A stretch of 64,000 nucleotides of DNA from Acetohalobium arabaticum DSM 5501 (GTDB taxonomy: Bacteria; Bacillota; Halanaerobiia; Halobacteroidales; Acetohalobiaceae), in assembly GCF_000144695.1 (NCBI RefSeq), contig NC_014378.1, positions 2,008,043-2,072,042 of the forward strand. Direction: 5' to 3'. How positions within the stretch are numbered: the stretch's first letter is position 1; the number at the start of each line of letters is the position of its first letter. This document shows, piece after piece, positions 3,098-27,518 of this stretch. Made by a program: the position numbers and the translations under genes. The notes beneath the pieces are model-generated. The model had not been told where the DNA came from. It was given only the letters and a program-made list of their open reading frames with translations, and did not search any database.

Positions 3098-4354
3098 CAC
3101 TATCGTTGCATTGTTAAAAATGACCAATGATTATTCGGATACTAGAATTGAAATCTTAAATCAAAAATCACATGTGAATTTTGATTCAAACCATCTATGT
3201 AGTTTGAGTCCAAAATATTTTAATTTGATTTACCATTAAAGCATTTTAATCCAATATATGGTGATTATTTCGGTGAATAGCTAAACTGACCCTATAAATC
3301 AATCAAAAATATTTTTAGCTAAAGCTATGACACCAGTCTTTCCAATTAAACGTATGTGGAACAGTCATTAAAATAGAATATTTGATTCTTCTTGTTAAAT
3401 TAAGCAGTCTACCATTAAATTTTGATTTCTGTTTGATTAGTTTTAAAAGTAGATATAAGATTATTGCACTGTAAATTTGAATTAAAACAGCATTTTCATT
3501 ATGCCCAAAGAATCTCTTAATCTTAAGATGCTGCTTGATCCATTTAAAGAATAACTCTATTTCCCAGCGTTCTTTATATAGCTGAGCTATTTGGTGGGCT
3601 GGTAAATCAAAGCGATTAGTTATAATTTCAATCTCTTTTTCATTACCTTGTCGGTCAGTAGTTTTAACTTTAATTAACCGTAATTTGTGTTTCATTCTTT
3701 TATCTGTAGAACCTAAAATAACATCAGCATCAAGTAAAATGTTAGCTTCTTTATCATCTTTAGTAGGCTCTAAAGTTCTAACAACTTCAATTTTAGTATT
3801 AGACTTAGTTCTAGTAACAAAATAGATATCATTTTCAATGAAGTCATCGAATTTTTGATAATCTATATAGGCTCTATCGAAGATATAAGTACAACCAGAA
3901 TCAAAAGTTAAATTATCGAATATCTCTTTATCATGAACTATAGCATTAGTAACAATTATATTTTCTGGTGCTCCACTTTCTGCATCATATAAGGTATGGA
4001 GTTTAATTCCACCTTTACTTTTTCTAAATTTAGCCCAAGCAAAAAGAGATAAGCATAAACTAATAATAGAGGAATCAATTATTTTTATTGATCCGATATC
4101 TTTTATAGTTTCTTTAAAGCCCTGTTTGTTCTTAAGTTTATCAAATAAATGAGAAAAAATATCAGCAAAAATTTGATAGCTTCTATTCTCATTTTTACGA
4201 GACAGCTGAGAAACACTAATTTGAGGTAATTCCTTTTTTAAATTTGAATCAACTTTTAGATTGACTACAAAATCTGCTAGACTCTTTTTCTCAGTTAAAG
4301 GAGTTTTCTTTTTGCAAAGGTAGTTTTAGCTAAAATTTCGATGCAACGCTAGTG
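3098..4354 (-). mobile_element. IS4-like insertion sequence, copy 1 (internally deleted)
   Basis: Ends are CACTATCGTTGCAT and the complement of CACTAGCGTTGCAT (13 of 14 matching), identical to those of the intact copy at 21023-22487. About 200 bp carrying the transposase start is missing: the sequence jumps from CAGTTAAA to GGAGTTTTC where the intact copy has the intervening segment. No target duplication is visible at the borders. Confidence 0.9.
3315..4300 (-). pseudogene. IS4-family transposase lacking its N-terminus
   Basis: The frame matches residues from about 50 to the end of the 376-residue transposase at 21240-22370 with very few differences (for example one K/E change before LRLIKVKTTD). 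It keeps the catalytic region including YKERWEIELFFKWIK but has lost the start codon, ribosome site and first 50 or so residues. The first methionine left is at 3695, giving only 126 residues without the first catalytic aspartates, so it cannot make active transposase. Confidence 0.9.
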
Positions 4355-21022: not shown

Positions 21023-22487
21023 CACTATCGTTGCATTGTTAAAAATGACCAATGATTATTCGGATACTAGAATTGAAATCTTAAATCAAAAATCACATGT
21101 GAATTTTGATTCAAACCATCTATGTAGTTTAAGTCCAAAATATTTTAATTTGATTTACCATTAAAGCATTTTAATCCAATATATGGTGATTATTTCGGTG
21201 AATAGCTAAACTGACCCTATAAATCAATCAAAAATATTTTTAGCTAAAGCTATGACACCAGTCTTTCCAATTAAACGTATGTGGAACAGTCATTAAAATA
21301 GAATATTTGATTCTTCTTGTTAAATTAAGCAGTCTACCATTAAATTTTGATTTCTGTTTGATTAGTTTTAAAAGTAGATATAAGATTATTGTACTGTAAA
21401 TTTGAATTAAAACAGCATTTTCATTATGCCCAAAGAATCTCTTAATCTTAAGATGCTGCTTGATCCATTTAAAGAATAACTCTATTTCCCAGCGTTCTTT
21501 ATATAGCTGAGCTATTTGGTGGGCTGGTAAATCAAAGCGATTAGTTATAATTTCAATCTCTTTTTCATTACCTTGGCGGTCAGTAGTTTTAACTTTAATT
21601 AACCGTAATTCGTGTTTCATTCTTTTATCTGTAGAACCTAAAATAACATCAGCATCAAGTAAAATATTAGCTTCTTTATCATCTTTAGTAGGCTCTAAAG
21701 TTCTAACAACTTCAATTTTAGTATTAGACTTAGTTCTAGTAACAAAATAAATATCATTTTCAATGAAGTCATCGAATTTTTGATAATCTATATAGGCTCT
21801 ATCGAAGATATAAGTACAACCAGAATCAAAAGTTAAGTTATCGAATATCTCTTTATCATGAACTATAGCATTAGTAACAATTATATTTTCTGGTGCTCCA
21901 CTTTCTGCATCATATAAGGTATGGAGTTTAATTCCACCTTTACTTTTTCTAAATTTAGCCCAAGCAAAAAGAGATAAGCATAAACTAATAATAGAGGAAT
22001 CAATTATTTTTATTGATCCGATATCTTTTATAGTTTCTTTAAAGCCCTGTTTGTTCTTAAGTTTATCAAATAAATGAGAAAAAATATCAGCAAAAATTTG
22101 ATAGCTTCTATTCTCATTTTTACGAGACAGCTGAGAAACACTAATTTGAGGTAATTCCTTTTTTAAATTTGAATCAACTTTTAGATTGACTACAAAATCT
22201 GCTAGACTCTTTTTCTCAGTTAAATGAAAGTAGAGTAGATATAATAGATGGACTTTAGTTGTAAGTTTATGAACCTTATAGTCAGCATTATATTTATCTA
22301 CCACTTTATCCAAAAAGTTTATATCAATTACCTCTAGTAATTTGTTTAAAAGCATGGTACAATTATTCATGAATTTTAGCTCCTTTGATTTATGGATTTG
22401 TGCTGTGTGAGGTGCTCTTCCATTTAATCAAAGGAGTTTTCTTTTTGCAAAGGTAGTTTTAGCTAAAATTTCGATGCAACGCTAGTG
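21023..22487 (-). mobile_element. IS4-like insertion sequence, copy 2 (intact, 1465 bp)
   Basis: Terminal inverted repeats CACTATCGTTGCAT and CACTAGCGTTGCAT (as complement) border a complete transposase gene. It differs from copy 1 (3098-4354) at only a few bases over their shared length. No target duplication can be seen in the flanks (ATTACAATA on the left, CTGAAAACT on the right). Confidence 0.92.
21240..22370 (-). CDS. IS4-family DDE transposase
   Basis: 376 residues. The N-terminal helical region is of the DUF4372 type found in IS4-like enzymes. The catalytic triad is visible as D in IKIIDSSII, D in YIFDRAYIDY and E in the YREK-like YKERWEIELFFKWIKQHLKIK. Start ATG at 22370 follows AAAGGAGCTAAAATTC. 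It is complete, so it could mobilise both its own element and the defective copy 1. Confidence 0.93.
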   Translation of the reverse strand: MNNCTMLLNKLLEVIDINFLDKVVDKYNADYKVHKLTTKVHLLYLLYFHLTEKKSLADFVVNLKVDSNLKKELPQISVSQLSRKNENRSYQIFADIFSHLFDKLKNKQGFKETIKDIGSIKIIDSSIISLCLSLFAWAKFRKSKGGIKLHTLYDAESGAPENIIVTNAIVHDKEIFDNLTFDSGCTYIFDRAYIDYQKFDDFIENDIYFVTRTKSNTKIEVVRTLEPTKDDKEANILLDADVILGSTDKRMKHELRLIKVKTTDRQGNEKEIEIITNRFDLPAHQIAQLYKERWEIELFFKWIKQHLKIKRFFGHNENAVLIQIYSTIILYLLLKLIKQKSKFNGRLLNLTRRIKYSILMTVPHTFNWKDWCHSFS

Positions 22488-22528: not shown

Positions 22529-24016
22529 TCAATTTCCAATTGCAGAAATAACCCCGGATTCCATTGTAAATTCATCATCATATGGACTTGGAGTTTCTTC
22601 TCCAGCCATATTCCCTACTCCAAACCAATTCATTTTCCAAAACCAAGTAGAATTTCTATGTATATTCATACATTGCTTAATTTTATAATTAGATGCTCTT
22701 GCCCCTATAACCCCATTATTATTAGCAGGAATATCATATTTCATTGACCAAAAATACCATGTAGTAGCATAATTATGTTCTTTTCTAAACTTTGTTAATT
22801 TTTTCAAGTAATCTAAAAAACCAGCATTTACTCTGTACACTGCTGCTATATCTTGTAAAGCATAATTTAGATCTCCAATTAATGTCGATGTTTTTGTAGT
22901 TCGATAATTCTCTATTACTACATCATTTTTAGTTGCCATCTCCATTGCATAATCACTTATTACATTCGCAATACTTTTTCCATTACTAAAATGTGAATTA
23001 CTCCAGTAAGGATCAAGTAACGCTATTCTCTTAGGCATATAATGAGAGTCTAAGTTATTTTCTTTAATATTATTACTTATTTTATGCGCCAAAGTAATTA
23101 CAACTTGGTTCCCTATAGAATGACCAACAAGTCTAATATTTTCATTAGTATTATTTCTTAAAGCTTTAATATAAGTATCATAAAAAATTTCATGTACACT
23201 TTTCTTTTGATTAAAATATCTATAACTTCCATTTCTCACCTTGTATCTTATATTTTTATCAAACCAAATTTTAGCCTCTGCATCTTCTACTCTAATAATT
23301 TCATCTTCTAAGAAACCTTCAGCAGCAAACTGTCCCCACATCCATGCTCCAATATTATAACCTTTTTTGCGCCATATCTTTCCAGTATTTATGCTATAAT
23401 TATGTGTACTTCTAATATATGGTTGATCTTGAGTAAAAGTACTTTCATATAAACCAGGTTGCCATCCATGAGAATAAATTACTACTGGCTTTTGTGGATC
23501 ATAATATTCATTTTTTCTTCCATCAACGTATTTCTCACATTCCCCATTTGGGCCAAACCAATATAAGCCATAATCTAAATCTGAAGTTTTAAATTCAAAA
23601 CTATGATTCTCTTTTAAACTATTTCCTGAATCATCTTTAATATCATCCTTAATAAAGATTTGATATTCTAATCCTGTTTTTACTCCTCTCAGTACAATTT
23701 TATTTCCTATATCAACATATTTTCTCTTTGGATCGAGAGTGATAACCTTATTTTTATATGAAACATCAGCTTCCATTACCTTACCAGTATCTTTGCGAAT
23801 CAATAAAATTGAAGATTTAATTGAATTCTCAGCTAATTTTTCATTGAAATATACTTTAATTTCACTACTAATATCAACATCCTTTGCTCCATCTGTTGGC
23901 TGTACTTTTACTATTTTAGGTGGTGTTTCATCTTTAAAATTTTTAAGTATTGAAGAACATCCACTCAATAGAAAAATTAATAATAAAATTAGTATAATAA
24001 TAAATTTTCTTTTCAT
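22529..24016 (-). CDS. Lipoprotein with Ig-like and lipase-type alpha/beta-hydrolase domains
   Basis: About 495 residues from ATG at 24016 (SD GAGGTG; a GTG at 24028 overlaps the SD). A lipoprotein signal (ILLLIFLLSGC) anchors it outside the membrane. Residues about 35-150 form a Big_5/SbsA-type Ig-like domain (VQPTDGAKDVDISSEIKVYF). The rest is an alpha/beta hydrolase with PVVIYSHGWQPG (oxyanion loop) and the nucleophile elbow GHSIG, followed by an acid/histidine region I cannot pin down (DPYWSNSHF, HNYATTWYFW). Probably an extracellular esterase or lipase; the substrate is unknown. It stands alone next to the IS4-like element. Confidence 0.75.
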   Translation of the reverse strand: MKRKFIIILILLLIFLLSGCSSILKNFKDETPPKIVKVQPTDGAKDVDISSEIKVYFNEKLAENSIKSSILLIRKDTGKVMEADVSYKNKVITLDPKRKYVDIGNKIVLRGVKTGLEYQIFIKDDIKDDSGNSLKENHSFEFKTSDLDYGLYWFGPNGECEKYVDGRKNEYYDPQKPVVIYSHGWQPGLYESTFTQDQPYIRSTHNYSINTGKIWRKKGYNIGAWMWGQFAAEGFLEDEIIRVEDAEAKIWFDKNIRYKVRNGSYRYFNQKKSVHEIFYDTYIKALRNNTNENIRLVGHSIGNQVVITLAHKISNNIKENNLDSHYMPKRIALLDPYWSNSHFSNGKSIANVISDYAMEMATKNDVVIENYRTTKTSTLIGDLNYALQDIAAVYRVNAGFLDYLKKLTKFRKEHNYATTWYFWSMKYDIPANNNGVIGARASNYKIKQCMNIHRNSTWFWKMNWFGVGNMAGEETPSPYDDEFTMESGVISAIGN

Positions 24017-24508
24017 TTCATTTTTCACCTCTATATTAACAATAGCTTTAAACTATATTTATCACTATATCACTTTCATATTTCTTAATTTTTTATTTGC
24101 CCAACGCTTATAATGAAATCAAATATAATATTATTGAATAATATCATAAGCATTCATCAACTACAATTAAAACTACTTTAAGCTTGTCCTATTACATCAT
24201 TACGACAAAAGGAATAATTTCCCTCCAAAGGATATTCTCTATGAATGTAATTCCTATTAAAACACAAATAACTCCAGCTGTTTAGCTAAAACCTTAATTC
24301 CATCATACAATCTAAAATCCTCCTCTATTTATCCCCAATAAAAATAATATAACACTTACTTTAGTCACTTATATTTTAATATAAATATAGATAAATAATT
24401 AAATATAAAGAAATTTAAACATAATATTTTAAAATCAAACAGGAATTTTATATTTTTTATCTAAATATATGGGATAAGTCCATAATATTATGAAAAGGAG
24501 AAAAATAA
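24017..24508. other. Intergenic stretch between lipoprotein and agr genes
   Basis: AT-rich. 24017-24174 shows only the lipoprotein leader. 24175-24320 is a dispersed repeat listed separately. 24321-24508 contains A/T-only runs and the AAAAGGAG ribosome site of the next gene; I could not fix a promoter. Confidence 0.5.
24175..24320 (-). repeat. Diverged dispersed repeat, copy 2
   Basis: Aligns with 2795-2950 and partly with 27545-27600 in the same orientation. On the minus strand this copy ends in a short open stretch (YIHREYPLEGNYSFCRNDVI then GQA and stop) that is not open in copy 1, so coding is unlikely. It may be an old mobile element end or a noncoding repeat. Confidence 0.45.
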
Positions 24509-24973
24509 ATGCAGCAGACTCAATTAATTTTATCAATCTTCCAATTTATTCTTGAAGGAATAGCACTTTCTTTTTCTACTGCAATATTTCTTAAAATAAA
24601 AATTGATAATAAAAAAATTTTAATTATTGGACTTATAAGTGCCCTACTAGGATTCTTTTTTAGAAAGCTGCCGATAGTTTTTGGATTCCACAGCATATTA
24701 TCTATTTTGCTTTTTACAATACTCTTGAATTTGTTTTATAAAAAAGAAATTGTAAAATGCTTTATAGCAGTAGCAAAGGCTTTTATTTTATTATCAGTTT
24801 TTGAAATCTTAACTGGAAATATTTTTATTTATTTAACTAACAAAACAGTAAAAGAAATTATCAACAATCCTTACTTAAAAACTCTAGCTGTTCTACCTCA
24901 AAGTATTTTATTATTTTTATTAGGATTTATTATGCTGCAAATAAGAAAAAGGAGAGATAAAGTTGAGTTATAA
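24509..24973 (+). CDS. Small polytopic membrane protein of the agr locus
   Basis: 154 residues with five probable transmembrane helices (starting ILSIFQFILEGIALSFSTAI) and a basic C-terminus (QIRKRRDKVEL). It resembles the sensor half of AgrC-type receptors without the kinase part, but I cannot confirm homology. ATG at 24509 follows GAAAAGGAGAAAAATAA. It overlaps agrB by 11 bases, so the two are translationally coupled. A role in binding or relaying the peptide signal is inferred from position. Confidence 0.65.
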   Translation: MQQTQLILSIFQFILEGIALSFSTAIFLKIKIDNKKILIIGLISALLGFFFRKLPIVFGFHSILSILLFTILLNLFYKKEIVKCFIAVAKAFILLSVFEILTGNIFIYLTNKTVKEIINNPYLKTLAVLPQSILLFLLGFIMLQIRKRRDKVEL

Positions 24974-25586
24974 ACAGGCAATTCAAACTTTAAGCAGCTA
25001 TATTGCTGAAGAATTAAATTTACCAGATAAAAAACAAGATAGAATCAGATTTGGGCTTGAACTATTAGTGTCAACACTTATGTCGCTTTCAACTTCTTTA
25101 ATTTTAGCCAAATTACTGGGGATTTTTAATTCTGTACTATTTATTCTGTTTGCAAGTGCAGTATTAAAATCAGTTTCAGGTGGAATTCATTTAAAAACTC
25201 CCTGGGAATGTGCTCTATTTGGTGCACTTTTCTTTAATATATTAGGATTGACTGCTGTTGTAATGAAAACATCTATTTATAATAATTGGGTATTATTTTT
25301 GATTATTAGTTCTCTTTACATATTCATTTCATTACTTTTATGGAGCCCAGCAGATGTTGAAGAAAAACCTATAAAGGGAGACAAGAAAAGAAAAACTTTG
25401 AAAATGATTTCTGTAATACTTTCTTCCATTCTGCTAGTATTAGTGGCAGTTTCATTTTTTGTCTATGAAGAACAATTTGCTTTATTTAATATAAGTGTAA
25501 TTTTAGGATTATTATTTCAATCTTCTACAATTAGTCCAGCAGCTTATAAATTGCTTGAATTTTATTATCAAGTAAGAAAGCTTTAA
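24963..25586 (+). CDS. agrB: AgrB-like signal peptide processing membrane protease
   Basis: 207 residues from TTG at 24963 (AAGGAG 8 bases before). Multi-spanning membrane protein with the AgrB catalytic pair in SGGIHLKTPWECALFG: a histidine and a cysteine seven residues apart, as in AgrB His77/Cys84. AgrB cleaves the C-terminal tail of AgrD and helps form the thiolactone ring. An AgrD-like gene lies 67 bases downstream. Length and hydropathy fit the family. Confidence 0.9.
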   Translation: MSYKQAIQTLSSYIAEELNLPDKKQDRIRFGLELLVSTLMSLSTSLILAKLLGIFNSVLFILFASAVLKSVSGGIHLKTPWECALFGALFFNILGLTAVVMKTSIYNNWVLFLIISSLYIFISLLLWSPADVEEKPIKGDKKRKTLKMISVILSSILLVLVAVSFFVYEEQFALFNISVILGLLFQSSTISPAAYKLLEFYYQVRKL

Positions 25587-25653
25587 TATACATATAAAAT
25601 TTATTCAATCAAATATTTATTAAAAATTATTAATTAAAAGGAGGTGTCAATCA

Positions 25654-25782
25654 GTGAAAAAATTAATGAAAAAATTAGCTATGAATAGTCTAGCTACTGT
25701 TCTACTAGTTATTGCAACAGTAGGAGTTATTGGCCCTACATGCTTCATGGGATTCTATCAGCCTGAACTACCAGAGGAATAA
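25654..25782 (+). CDS. agrD: AgrD-like cyclic (thio)lactone autoinducer precursor, 42 residues
   Basis: GTG at 25654 after AAAAGGAGGTGTCAATCA. The peptide has a basic amphipathic N-terminus (KKLMKKLAMNSLATVLLVIA), a candidate signal core with one cysteine (GPTCFMGFY) and an acidic tail (QPELPEE), the three-part layout of AgrD precursors. The cysteine would form the thiolactone with a residue four or so positions later; GPTCFMGF is the likely region. The AgrB gene upstream supports this. Confidence 0.85.
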   Translation: MKKLMKKLAMNSLATVLLVIATVGVIGPTCFMGFYQPELPEE

Positions 25783-25799
25783 TTTTAAATATGTATAAC

Positions 25800-25838
25800 A
25801 TCAGTAAAAGGTAGTTTCTCTCACTACCTTTTACTGAT
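25800..25838 (+). terminator. Strong hairpin between agrD and the GGDEF/HD-GYP gene
   Basis: A perfect 15-bp stem (ATCAGTAAAAGGTAG and its complement) with a 9-base loop, 17 bases after agrD. Only TTTCT follows, so it is a partial terminator or a transcript processing/attenuation point that sets expression of the next gene, whose start is 18 bases on. Confidence 0.7.
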
Positions 25839-25856
25839 TTCTATGGAGGGATATAG

Positions 25857-27518
25857 TTGGATCATAAAAACTTTGACTGGCAAAAATTAAGACAAAATAA
25901 AATCAAAAATTATACAATCTTTAGTTATGTTATGGCTTTATTATTACTGGGAATGATTGTTCTAGAATTTTTTTCTTGCTCTAATTTTGGTGTTTTCCCA
26001 TATCTTACTGTGTCAATTCCTGCACTTATATTAATTACTTGTTTTATTTCAAAATATTTAAATAATAAAACTATAATAAGTTCCCCTCGAAAGAATAATT
26101 ATTTTCTATTTATTTTATTTGTCTCTTTAATTACTATTTTAGTTCTCAAAAATATAACTTTTGATAAACATCTGTTAAAGATATACTATCTCATCCCTAT
26201 TATTTTATCTGCAATTAATTACAGCCAATCTTTAGGATTTTTTACAGCTGGTTATTCTAGTTTAAATTTACTAATGCTAAATTATTTATTAAATGATTTT
26301 TCAAAGCTTGATTTTGATATAATAATTATTATTTTATTCTTTTGGGTTGCCTGGTTAATTGGAGGCTTTATAGATTTAGAACAAAAAGTACAAGAACAGC
26401 TAGAAAAAATAGCTGTTACAGATAACTTGACTTCACTGCCTAATTACGCTAATTTTCAAACTACATTGGATTCATGGCTAGAAAAAGCTAAAGATGAACA
26501 GATTCCCCTCAGCTTAGCATTAATGGACTTAGATAATTTTAAATTTTTTAATGATTCATTAGGCCATCAAAAAGGAGATGAATTATTAAAACAGACAGCA
26601 ACATTAGTCAAAGAACAAATAGATGAAGATATCTTTTTTGCTCGTTATGGTGGAGATGAATTTGCCTTTTTATTTCTTGGTCATAACCAAGAAACTGCCT
26701 TAAAAAAAATTAAAAAAATCAAAAAAGTAGTTCAGAAAAAAATAACTATTCCTTATGAAGATTTTTTAGAAGAAAAACCTACTTTTTCTTTAGGAGTAGC
26801 TTCTTATCCAGACCAAGCCCTAACAAAGCAGGAACTAATTGATATGGCAGACTATGCATTATATCAAGCTAAGACAACTCAAAAAGATCAAGTTGAAATT
26901 TATCATAAGGCTTTAAATGAATTAGCAGATGAACTTGAAGAATCAGAAAGAGAATCATTTAATTCAATACGTACTTTATTGAGTATAATTAATGCCAAGG
27001 ATAAGTATACCTATGCACATTCAGAACGTATAGCAAACTATGCCAAGAAATTTGCTAAAGAATTAAAGTTATCAGAAGAAGAAACAAAAAGATTGGTCTA
27101 TGGAGCTTTTCTCCATGATATTGGCAAAATTGAAGTTGAACGCGAAATATTAATGAAACAAGAAAAATTAGATGAATCAGAATGGAAAATGATTAAAAAA
27201 CATCCAAAAATAGGAAATAAAATTCTTGCTCCACTTCAATTCAGTCAAGAAATTAAACCGATAGTCCTTTACCATCATGAAAATTTCGATGGAACAGGTT
27301 ATCCGGAAGGATTAAAAGGAAATGAAATTCCTTTTTATGCTAGAATATTAAGAATTCTAGATAGTTTTGATGCAATAACAACTAACAGGCCATATAGCTC
27401 TGCTGCTAGTAAACAAGAAGCTCTAAAAGAATTAAAAAAGGAAACTGGTAAACAATTTGATCCGCAGTTAGTAAAAGTATTTTTAAAAGTAGCCAAAAAA
27501 GATATTAAACTAAATTAA
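25857..27518 (+). CDS. Membrane-bound c-di-GMP protein with GGDEF and HD-GYP domains
   Basis: 553 residues from TTG at 25857 (GGAGGGATATAG). Residues 1-175 form about six membrane helices. A GGDEF domain follows (about 190-345) with an intact FARYGGDEFAF active site, so synthesis of c-di-GMP is possible. Then an HD-GYP phosphodiesterase domain (about 370-545) with HDIGKIEVE, KHPKIG, HHENFDGTGYPEGL. Having both intact suggests that input from the membrane part decides which activity dominates. The location right after agrBD, in the place usually taken by agrC/agrA, suggests that peptide signalling feeds into c-di-GMP. That link is inference. Confidence 0.88.
   Translation: MDHKNFDWQKLRQNKIKNYTIFSYVMALLLLGMIVLEFFSCSNFGVFPYLTVSIPALILITCFISKYLNNKTIISSPRKNNYFLFILFVSLITILVLKNITFDKHLLKIYYLIPIILSAINYSQSLGFFTAGYSSLNLLMLNYLLNDFSKLDFDIIIIILFFWVAWLIGGFIDLEQKVQEQLEKIAVTDNLTSLPNYANFQTTLDSWLEKAKDEQIPLSLALMDLDNFKFFNDSLGHQKGDELLKQTATLVKEQIDEDIFFARYGGDEFAFLFLGHNQETALKKIKKIKKVVQKKITIPYEDFLEEKPTFSLGVASYPDQALTKQELIDMADYALYQAKTTQKDQVEIYHKALNELADELEESERESFNSIRTLLSIINAKDKYTYAHSERIANYAKKFAKELKLSEEETKRLVYGAFLHDIGKIEVEREILMKQEKLDESEWKMIKKHPKIGNKILAPLQFSQEIKPIVLYHHENFDGTGYPEGLKGNEIPFYARILRILDSFDAITTNRPYSSAASKQEALKELKKETGKQFDPQLVKVFLKVAKKDIKLN

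Follow-up and report, generated by a model that had tools for sequence, protein, structure and literature searches.

The genome of Acetohalobium arabaticum DSM 5501 carries four genes in one direction, in the order ORF1–agrB–agrD–hairpin–6-TM GGDEF/HD-GYP gene, within the 64,000-nucleotide stretch of contig NC_014378.1 that was analyzed here (the window; positions 2,008,043 to 2,072,042). Every gene of the operon is preceded by a Shine-Dalgarno-like sequence, and ORF1, which comes first, overlaps agrB by 11 bp (Table 1). A preliminary description of this DNA had listed AgrB, a 42-residue AgrD-like precursor, a small polytopic protein and, after a 15-bp hairpin, a six-helix GGDEF/HD-GYP protein at the position where agrC and agrA would normally stand. 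All of these genes are in place, but the small polytopic gene lies ahead of agrB, and the hairpin, which does fall between agrD and the enzyme gene, has a stem of 16 bp. Peptide signaling of the agr type is known as a kinase-regulator system. The signal-making half of the present operon is agr by every test, whereas the tests for an AgrC kinase and for AgrA fail: the operon contains neither a gene for a histidine kinase, ORF1 corresponding to the sensor part only, nor one for a LytTR regulator. The output half is new.

Table 1. Features of the operon, numbered from the first base of the window
Feature	Position	Strand	Basis
ORF1, 5-TM protein of 154 aa; AgrC-type sensor domain without kinase, proposed subunit of the peptide receptor	24509..24973	+	homology to S1/S2 and to fused-kinase N-termini
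agrB, peptide-processing membrane protease	24963..25586	+	PF04647, 121 bits vs cut-off 23, residues 8-189
agrD, 42-aa cyclic peptide precursor	25654..25782	+	TIGR04223, 34.7 bits vs cut-off 19, E 1.4e-8
Codons for the predicted thiolactone ring of 5 residues (C30-F-M-G-F34), with cleavage before Y35-QPELPEE	25741..25755	+	spacing of C/S to YQP
Hairpin, 16 bp, between agrD and enzyme gene; possible partial terminator or 3' stabilizer	25800..25838	+	
Membrane GGDEF/HD-GYP enzyme, 553 aa	25857..27518	+	PF00990, PF13487
6-TM N-terminal domain ('DGCN'), aa 8-187, common to agr-linked histidine kinases	25878..26417	+	model, profile
GGDEF domain (aa 186-344) with intact motif, lacking the RxxD inhibitory site	26412..26888	+	PF00990, 124.5 bits
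HD-GYP domain, aa 374-538, all motifs intact	26976..27470	+	PF13487, 146.7 bits

The peptide signal and the c-di-GMP enzyme

The identities first given to AgrB, AgrD and the enzyme were borne out by profile searches. AgrB contains the accessory gene regulator B domain across its full length (PF04647, E 5e-35), and AgrD passes the cut-off of TIGR04223 (E 1e-8), lies by agrB and, when precursors are aligned, shows the leader, the C/S ring segment and the conserved acidic tail. The precursor, MKKLMKKLAMNSLATVLLVIATVGVIGPTCFMGFYQPELPEE, follows the agr pattern, with a five-residue ring, CFMGF, and then a recognition tail, YQPELPEE. The thiolactone structure is a prediction that fits the motif spacing. 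A lactone peptide of Clostridium thermocellum confirmed by mass spectrometry has the same ring size and ends before a Tyr at the same place (PMC5322536). The arrangement of a Cys or Ser and four residues before a YQP-type motif (C/S-xxxx-[YH][QE]P) recurs in 39 of 43 comparable loci; the gene caller missed agrD in some loci, where a direct motif scan usually recovered it. Across loci the ring varies and the tail is constant, as expected for a peptide that determines specificity.

The enzyme matches PF00990 (4e-36) and PF13487 (8e-43). Its YGGDEF sequence satisfies the GG[DE]EF motif of diguanylate cyclases, and its HDIGK and HHENFDGTGYP sequences satisfy the pattern of HD-GYP phosphodiesterases (HD, HDxGK, HHExxDGxGYP); catalytic activity is inferred. 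The RxxD I-site is absent from this enzyme and from all 49 homologues compared. The earlier impression that both c-di-GMP domains look active holds for the motifs of the window protein but does not extend to the group, since the GGDEF motif is lost in 18 of 49 homologues. Because 48 of 49 enzymes retain the HD-GYP motifs, as against 31 of 49 for GGDEF, the conserved output is probably c-di-GMP hydrolysis by the HD-GYP domain, for which no enzyme data exist. Where the GGDEF domain is degenerate, it may serve as a regulatory site, which is again an inference. With both domains intact in the A. arabaticum enzyme, the net sign of its effect on c-di-GMP cannot be predicted. The six N-terminal helices that had been described also appear in a structural model, which was built from only three sequences and is of low confidence (pLDDT 62, pTM 0.43). 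This 6-TM domain falls below the MASE1 cut-off (15.4 bits vs 29.8), and that of a homologous locus, L086, falls below the cut-offs for 6TM_PilS (20.8 bits vs 27) and DUF4118 (17.5 vs 28.4).

The hairpin between agrD and the enzyme gene is strong (-23.1 kcal/mol, z -4.2) and has no match in Rfam. A hairpin with z<-2 follows agrD in 18 of 26 loci of the c-di-GMP type, compared with 20 of 120 control gene ends, and many kinase-type loci have one there as well. Most simply, we infer a partial terminator or 3' stabilizer, such that agrBD and the enzyme are made in different amounts.

ORF1 and the exchangeable outputs of the 6-TM domain

ORF1 belongs to no family in Pfam or NCBIfam. Its AlphaFold model is fairly confident (pLDDT 84) and consists of five long helices, with which Foldseek returned no match at E<=0.001 (the best, at Z 6.5, was a helix bundle of MprF and tells little about ORF1); this fold search found no solved AgrC sensor for comparison. 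Relatives of ORF1 were found closer to home. A second agrBD lies at 636-639 kb of the same genome, 1.4 Mb from the window operon, together with two small membrane proteins (S1 and S2) beside a split AgrC-like kinase, which has 281 residues and two TM helices. Homology of ORF1 to S1 and S2 extends along the whole of ORF1, at 25% identity. A profile seeded with these three proteins and then iterated detected the domain in 89 proteins of agr loci. Some of these are fusions with a kinase, about 450 residues long; in the others the domain stands by itself, next to either a split kinase or a c-di-GMP enzyme. The N-termini of the fused kinases from canonical agr loci fall in the same HMM family as ORF1, and several of the fusions adjoin AgrB, AgrD and a LytTR regulator (L099, L120, L130, L131). 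The Staphylococcus AgrC model NF046015 spans the membrane and kinase parts of both fusions tested, nearly at full length (profile positions 12-395 for L099 and 49-395 for L131). On the strength of these alignments, ORF1 is a member of the AgrC sensor family that lacks the kinase. That it binds peptide is inferred without binding data.

Since the small polytopic protein corresponds to a detached AgrC-type sensor domain, the receptor is probably formed by ORF1 together with the 6-TM domain of the enzyme; the contact between the two and the binding of peptide remain inferences. The receptor unit gains support from loci in which agrB is missing and ORF1 nevertheless stays with a 6-TM protein (L170, L176, L184, L187, with L179 also counted). 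The 6-TM domain is not confined to c-di-GMP enzymes. In other agr loci it is fused to histidine kinases, with or without a receiver (L096, L100, L109, L113, L126, L173, L188), so the output is interchangeable, and ORF1 adjoins such a 6TM-HK or 6TM-HK-REC protein in L100, L109, L113 and L126. A further variant is seen in L137, where the gene that ORF1 overlaps encodes two TM helices and an HD-GYP domain and takes the position of the split kinase. Some 6-TM kinases have no adjoining agr genes (L178, L181, L182, with L179 again counted), and therefore the 6-TM domain by itself is no proof of peptide sensing. We lean, with some reserve, toward a widespread class of one-step systems in Bacillota in which a detached AgrC sensor, paired with a 6-TM transmitter domain whose cytoplasmic output is exchangeable, senses cyclic peptides of the AgrD type, and c-di-GMP is set directly. 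The outputs included in this class are c-di-GMP turnover, a kinase and a hybrid kinase, and no phosphotransfer would intervene between cell density and c-di-GMP.

Conservation of the linkage and competing explanations

One check proposed in the preliminary description was whether relatives keep agrBD next to the c-di-GMP gene, and they do. We searched 398 Bacillota genomes with an AgrB profile and, separately, with a profile of the 6-TM domain, and the neighborhoods were then read. Among the 150 agrB matches listed, 51 contigs carry a 6-TM domain within 4 kb. The 6-TM search was blind to location and every hit with E below 1e-20 was checked, so the linkage cannot be put down to selection by agrB; because the seeds of the profile came from agr loci, a more distant subfamily free of agr may have been missed. 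This search and its follow-up yielded 51 distinct genes that join the 6-TM domain to GGDEF/HD-GYP. Both ORF1 and agrB lie within 3.5 kb of 42 of these genes, agrB only near 3 and ORF1 only near another 3. The last 3 have neither neighbor, and their contigs end 1, 2 and 243 bases upstream. All 48 assessable enzyme genes are thus found with agrB and/or ORF1, usually in the order ORF1-agrB-(agrD)-enzyme and with consistent strands in 60 of the 61 loci that have such neighbors. Members come from roughly twenty family-level groups of Bacillota. In a genome from another family of the same order (L036), the gene order of the window is retained, at identities of 47% for ORF1, 59% for AgrB and 63% for the enzyme. 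Output type also follows the AgrB tree (7 changes vs 32 in shuffles), in which the window AgrB groups with those of two loci of the c-di-GMP type, L036 and L188. The linkage of the agr genes and the c-di-GMP enzyme is real. Within the order, AgrB is present in 12 of 13 genomes, nearly all of them with the split-kinase type, and the module in only 2 of 13, a patchiness which suggests mobility or loss of the operon; transfer itself is untested. A first scan of contigs, with two-row N-terminal patterns, gave no match, and a second turned up Clostridiales bacterium PH28_bin88 and a Clostridia MAG, each with agrB, agrD and the enzyme.

We consider it probable that the locus is a quorum-sensing operon of the agr peptide type, with a membrane c-di-GMP enzyme in place of the kinase-regulator pair. 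AgrB would cut and cyclize AgrD, giving the ring predicted as Cys-Phe-Met-Gly-Phe, and the secreted peptide would be sensed at the membrane by ORF1 together with the 6-TM domain of the enzyme. The GGDEF/HD-GYP output would then change in activity, most likely in its HD-GYP phosphodiesterase, so that cell density would change c-di-GMP without phosphotransfer. The weak point of this explanation is that there are no binding, enzyme or expression data. In this salt-loving anaerobe and many other Bacillota, the agr peptide genes travel with a detached receptor piece and a membrane enzyme for making or destroying c-di-GMP, an arrangement which suggests that bacteria translate cell density straight into a second messenger, bypassing the usual kinase and regulator.

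A dedicated AgrC/AgrA pair elsewhere in the genome, tied to the window agrBD, would have refuted this proposal. The genome search did recover an AgrC-like kinase, the split one at the second locus, but no LytTR regulator beside agr genes; the only LytTR regulator of the genome sits at 1.117 Mb, by LytS and CstA. The second locus does not qualify as the missing pair, since it comes with an agrBD of its own, the AgrB of which belongs to a separate branch of the AgrB tree. Its kinase leaves room for another explanation, in which the enzyme is a co-regulated target or a passenger of the operon that answers some other signal through its own 6-TM domain, and a different protein, such as the split kinase at 636 kb, senses the peptide. 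We regard this as unlikely. The second locus does possess both a sensor and a kinase, 6-TM kinases without agr genes do exist, and the strong hairpin between agrD and the enzyme gene makes unequal or separate expression possible. A mere passenger is hard to reconcile, however, with 48 of 48 assessable enzymes sitting with agrB and/or ORF1, with the lack of any kinase in the operon for ORF1, a relative of the AgrC sensor, to serve, or with the separate branches of the two AgrBs and the absence of the module from most genomes that carry the second type of locus. The ring predicted for the precursor of the second locus, SGIAY, is not the same, and this speaks against cross-talk of the split kinase with the window peptide without excluding it.

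Less credible still is that ORF1 helps AgrB in maturation or export of the peptide and that the 6-TM domain of the enzyme is the receptor by itself. The overlap of ORF1 with agrB, and its place almost always directly upstream in operons of the c-di-GMP type, would suit a helper, but ORF1-type domains serve as the AgrC sensor when fused to kinases, are duplicated beside the split kinase (L028, L034) and accompany 6-TM proteins in the absence of agrB. A chance neighborhood in one genome, to which the occurrence of the module in just two genomes of the order might point, is ruled out by the 48 of 48 count, and the recurrence of the same order in so many families and the presence of only 7 GGDEF-domain matches in the whole A. 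arabaticum genome, which makes a chance GGDEF neighbor improbable, also speak against it.

Relation to known systems and readout of c-di-GMP

Compared with canonical agr (AgrB/AgrD/AgrC/AgrA), the operon shares genuine AgrB and AgrD members and, in ORF1, a relative of the AgrC sensor part, and sister loci in the same AgrB tree carry a full AgrC with a LytTR regulator. The difference lies in the output, a GGDEF/HD-GYP enzyme in place of kinase and regulator. Quorum signals are also known to end in an HD-GYP phosphodiesterase in RpfC/RpfG. That endpoint is similar, whereas the route there involves a kinase and phosphorylation of an HD-GYP response regulator. A comparable chain in Clostridioides difficile R20291 is transcriptional: phosphodiesterase genes are under the influence of agr, as is the flagellar operon, in front of which lies the c-di-GMP riboswitch Cd1, and inactivation of agrA alters the transcript levels of phosphodiesterase genes (PMC3754575). 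In A. arabaticum, by contrast, the enzyme itself is encoded with agrBD, and the operon would shorten such a chain by placing the enzyme inside the agr operon.

Direct sensing of quorum molecules by c-di-GMP enzymes has precedents of other kinds. RpfR of Burkholderia cenocepacia binds BDSF itself, which raises its phosphodiesterase activity (PMC8846402), and the membrane diguanylate cyclase rpHK1S-Z16 is stimulated directly by AI-2 (PMC7584622). The former differs in its fatty-acid signal, PAS sensor and proteobacterial host, and the latter in its dCACHE sensor and AI-2; neither responds to a peptide. A review of c-di-GMP sensing names two direct receptors of quorum molecules, RpfR and the AI-2-binding cyclase, and we found no peptide receptor in it (PMC8846402). 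Full-text searches, which did not cover most subscription papers or bioRxiv, found no report that links agrBD with a GGDEF/HD-GYP gene. If the proposal is correct, many Bacillota would have one more quorum route, in which a conserved operon couples a c-di-GMP enzyme to a cyclic peptide that is secreted, and the AgrC sensor would be a separable module with exchangeable outputs. In laboratory hosts, the parts could then be used as an orthogonal c-di-GMP switch under peptide control.

Receptors for c-di-GMP are present in A. arabaticum, through which a change in its level could be read. The genome contains two class I c-di-GMP riboswitches, one in front of the flagellar operon flgB-flgC-fliE-fliF-fliG-fliH-fliI and the other in front of a degS-like kinase gene, a Flp-type pilin gene and Tad genes, and this placement before flagellar and pilus operons provides a testable prediction for motility and attachment. 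The genome also encodes one PilZ protein, next to flhF/ylxH/cheC/cheD-like genes; the names of the genes near the riboswitches and the PilZ gene were assigned by reading their sequences.

Second agr locus and split kinases

A. arabaticum carries a second agr locus, in which AgrC is split: a 281-aa kinase with two TM helices and two separate small sensor proteins are encoded divergently from agrB-agrD; no LytTR regulator is present at this locus, and the ring of its AgrD peptide is predicted to be S-G-I-A-Y. This split-AgrC type is present in most genomes of the order, with up to four copies of the sensor gene in some (as at L028). Separately, an inserted 422-aa ORF appears to interrupt the split kinase gene of one relative (L035).

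Apparently exchanged and possibly doubled outputs

At L137, a 307-aa protein combining two TM helices with HD-GYP is encoded where the split kinase would be expected, its gene overlapped by that of an ORF1-type sensor, apparently an independent swap to c-di-GMP output. At each of the agr loci L173 and L188, a 6-TM histidine kinase is encoded alongside a 6-TM GGDEF/HD-GYP protein, a pairing that may give one peptide two readouts.

c-di-GMP riboswitches and neighboring genes

Two A. arabaticum operons are preceded by class I c-di-GMP riboswitches. Within the window, the lipoprotein gene is divergent from the agr operon, and its product possibly contains an alpha/beta-hydrolase region.

Feature coordinates (L, extracted loci, local numbering)
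Feature	Position	Strand	Remark
DDE transposase	window 21240-22370	-	DUF4372/DDE_Tnp_1
Second DDE transposase copy	window 3315-3695	-	C-terminal fragment, nearly identical
Lipoprotein	window 22529-24028	-	N-terminal Big_5 domain
Second agr locus	L012:5734-8744		split AgrC; genome about 636-639 kb
Riboswitch	L213:6746-6837		flagellar operon
Riboswitch	L214:2058-2141		degS-like/Flp/Tad pilus operon
HD-GYP locus	L137:5841-7269
Double-output agr locus (possible)	L173:3051-7528
Double-output agr locus (possible)	L188:2919-7138
Split agr kinase, apparently interrupted	L035:5617-7969
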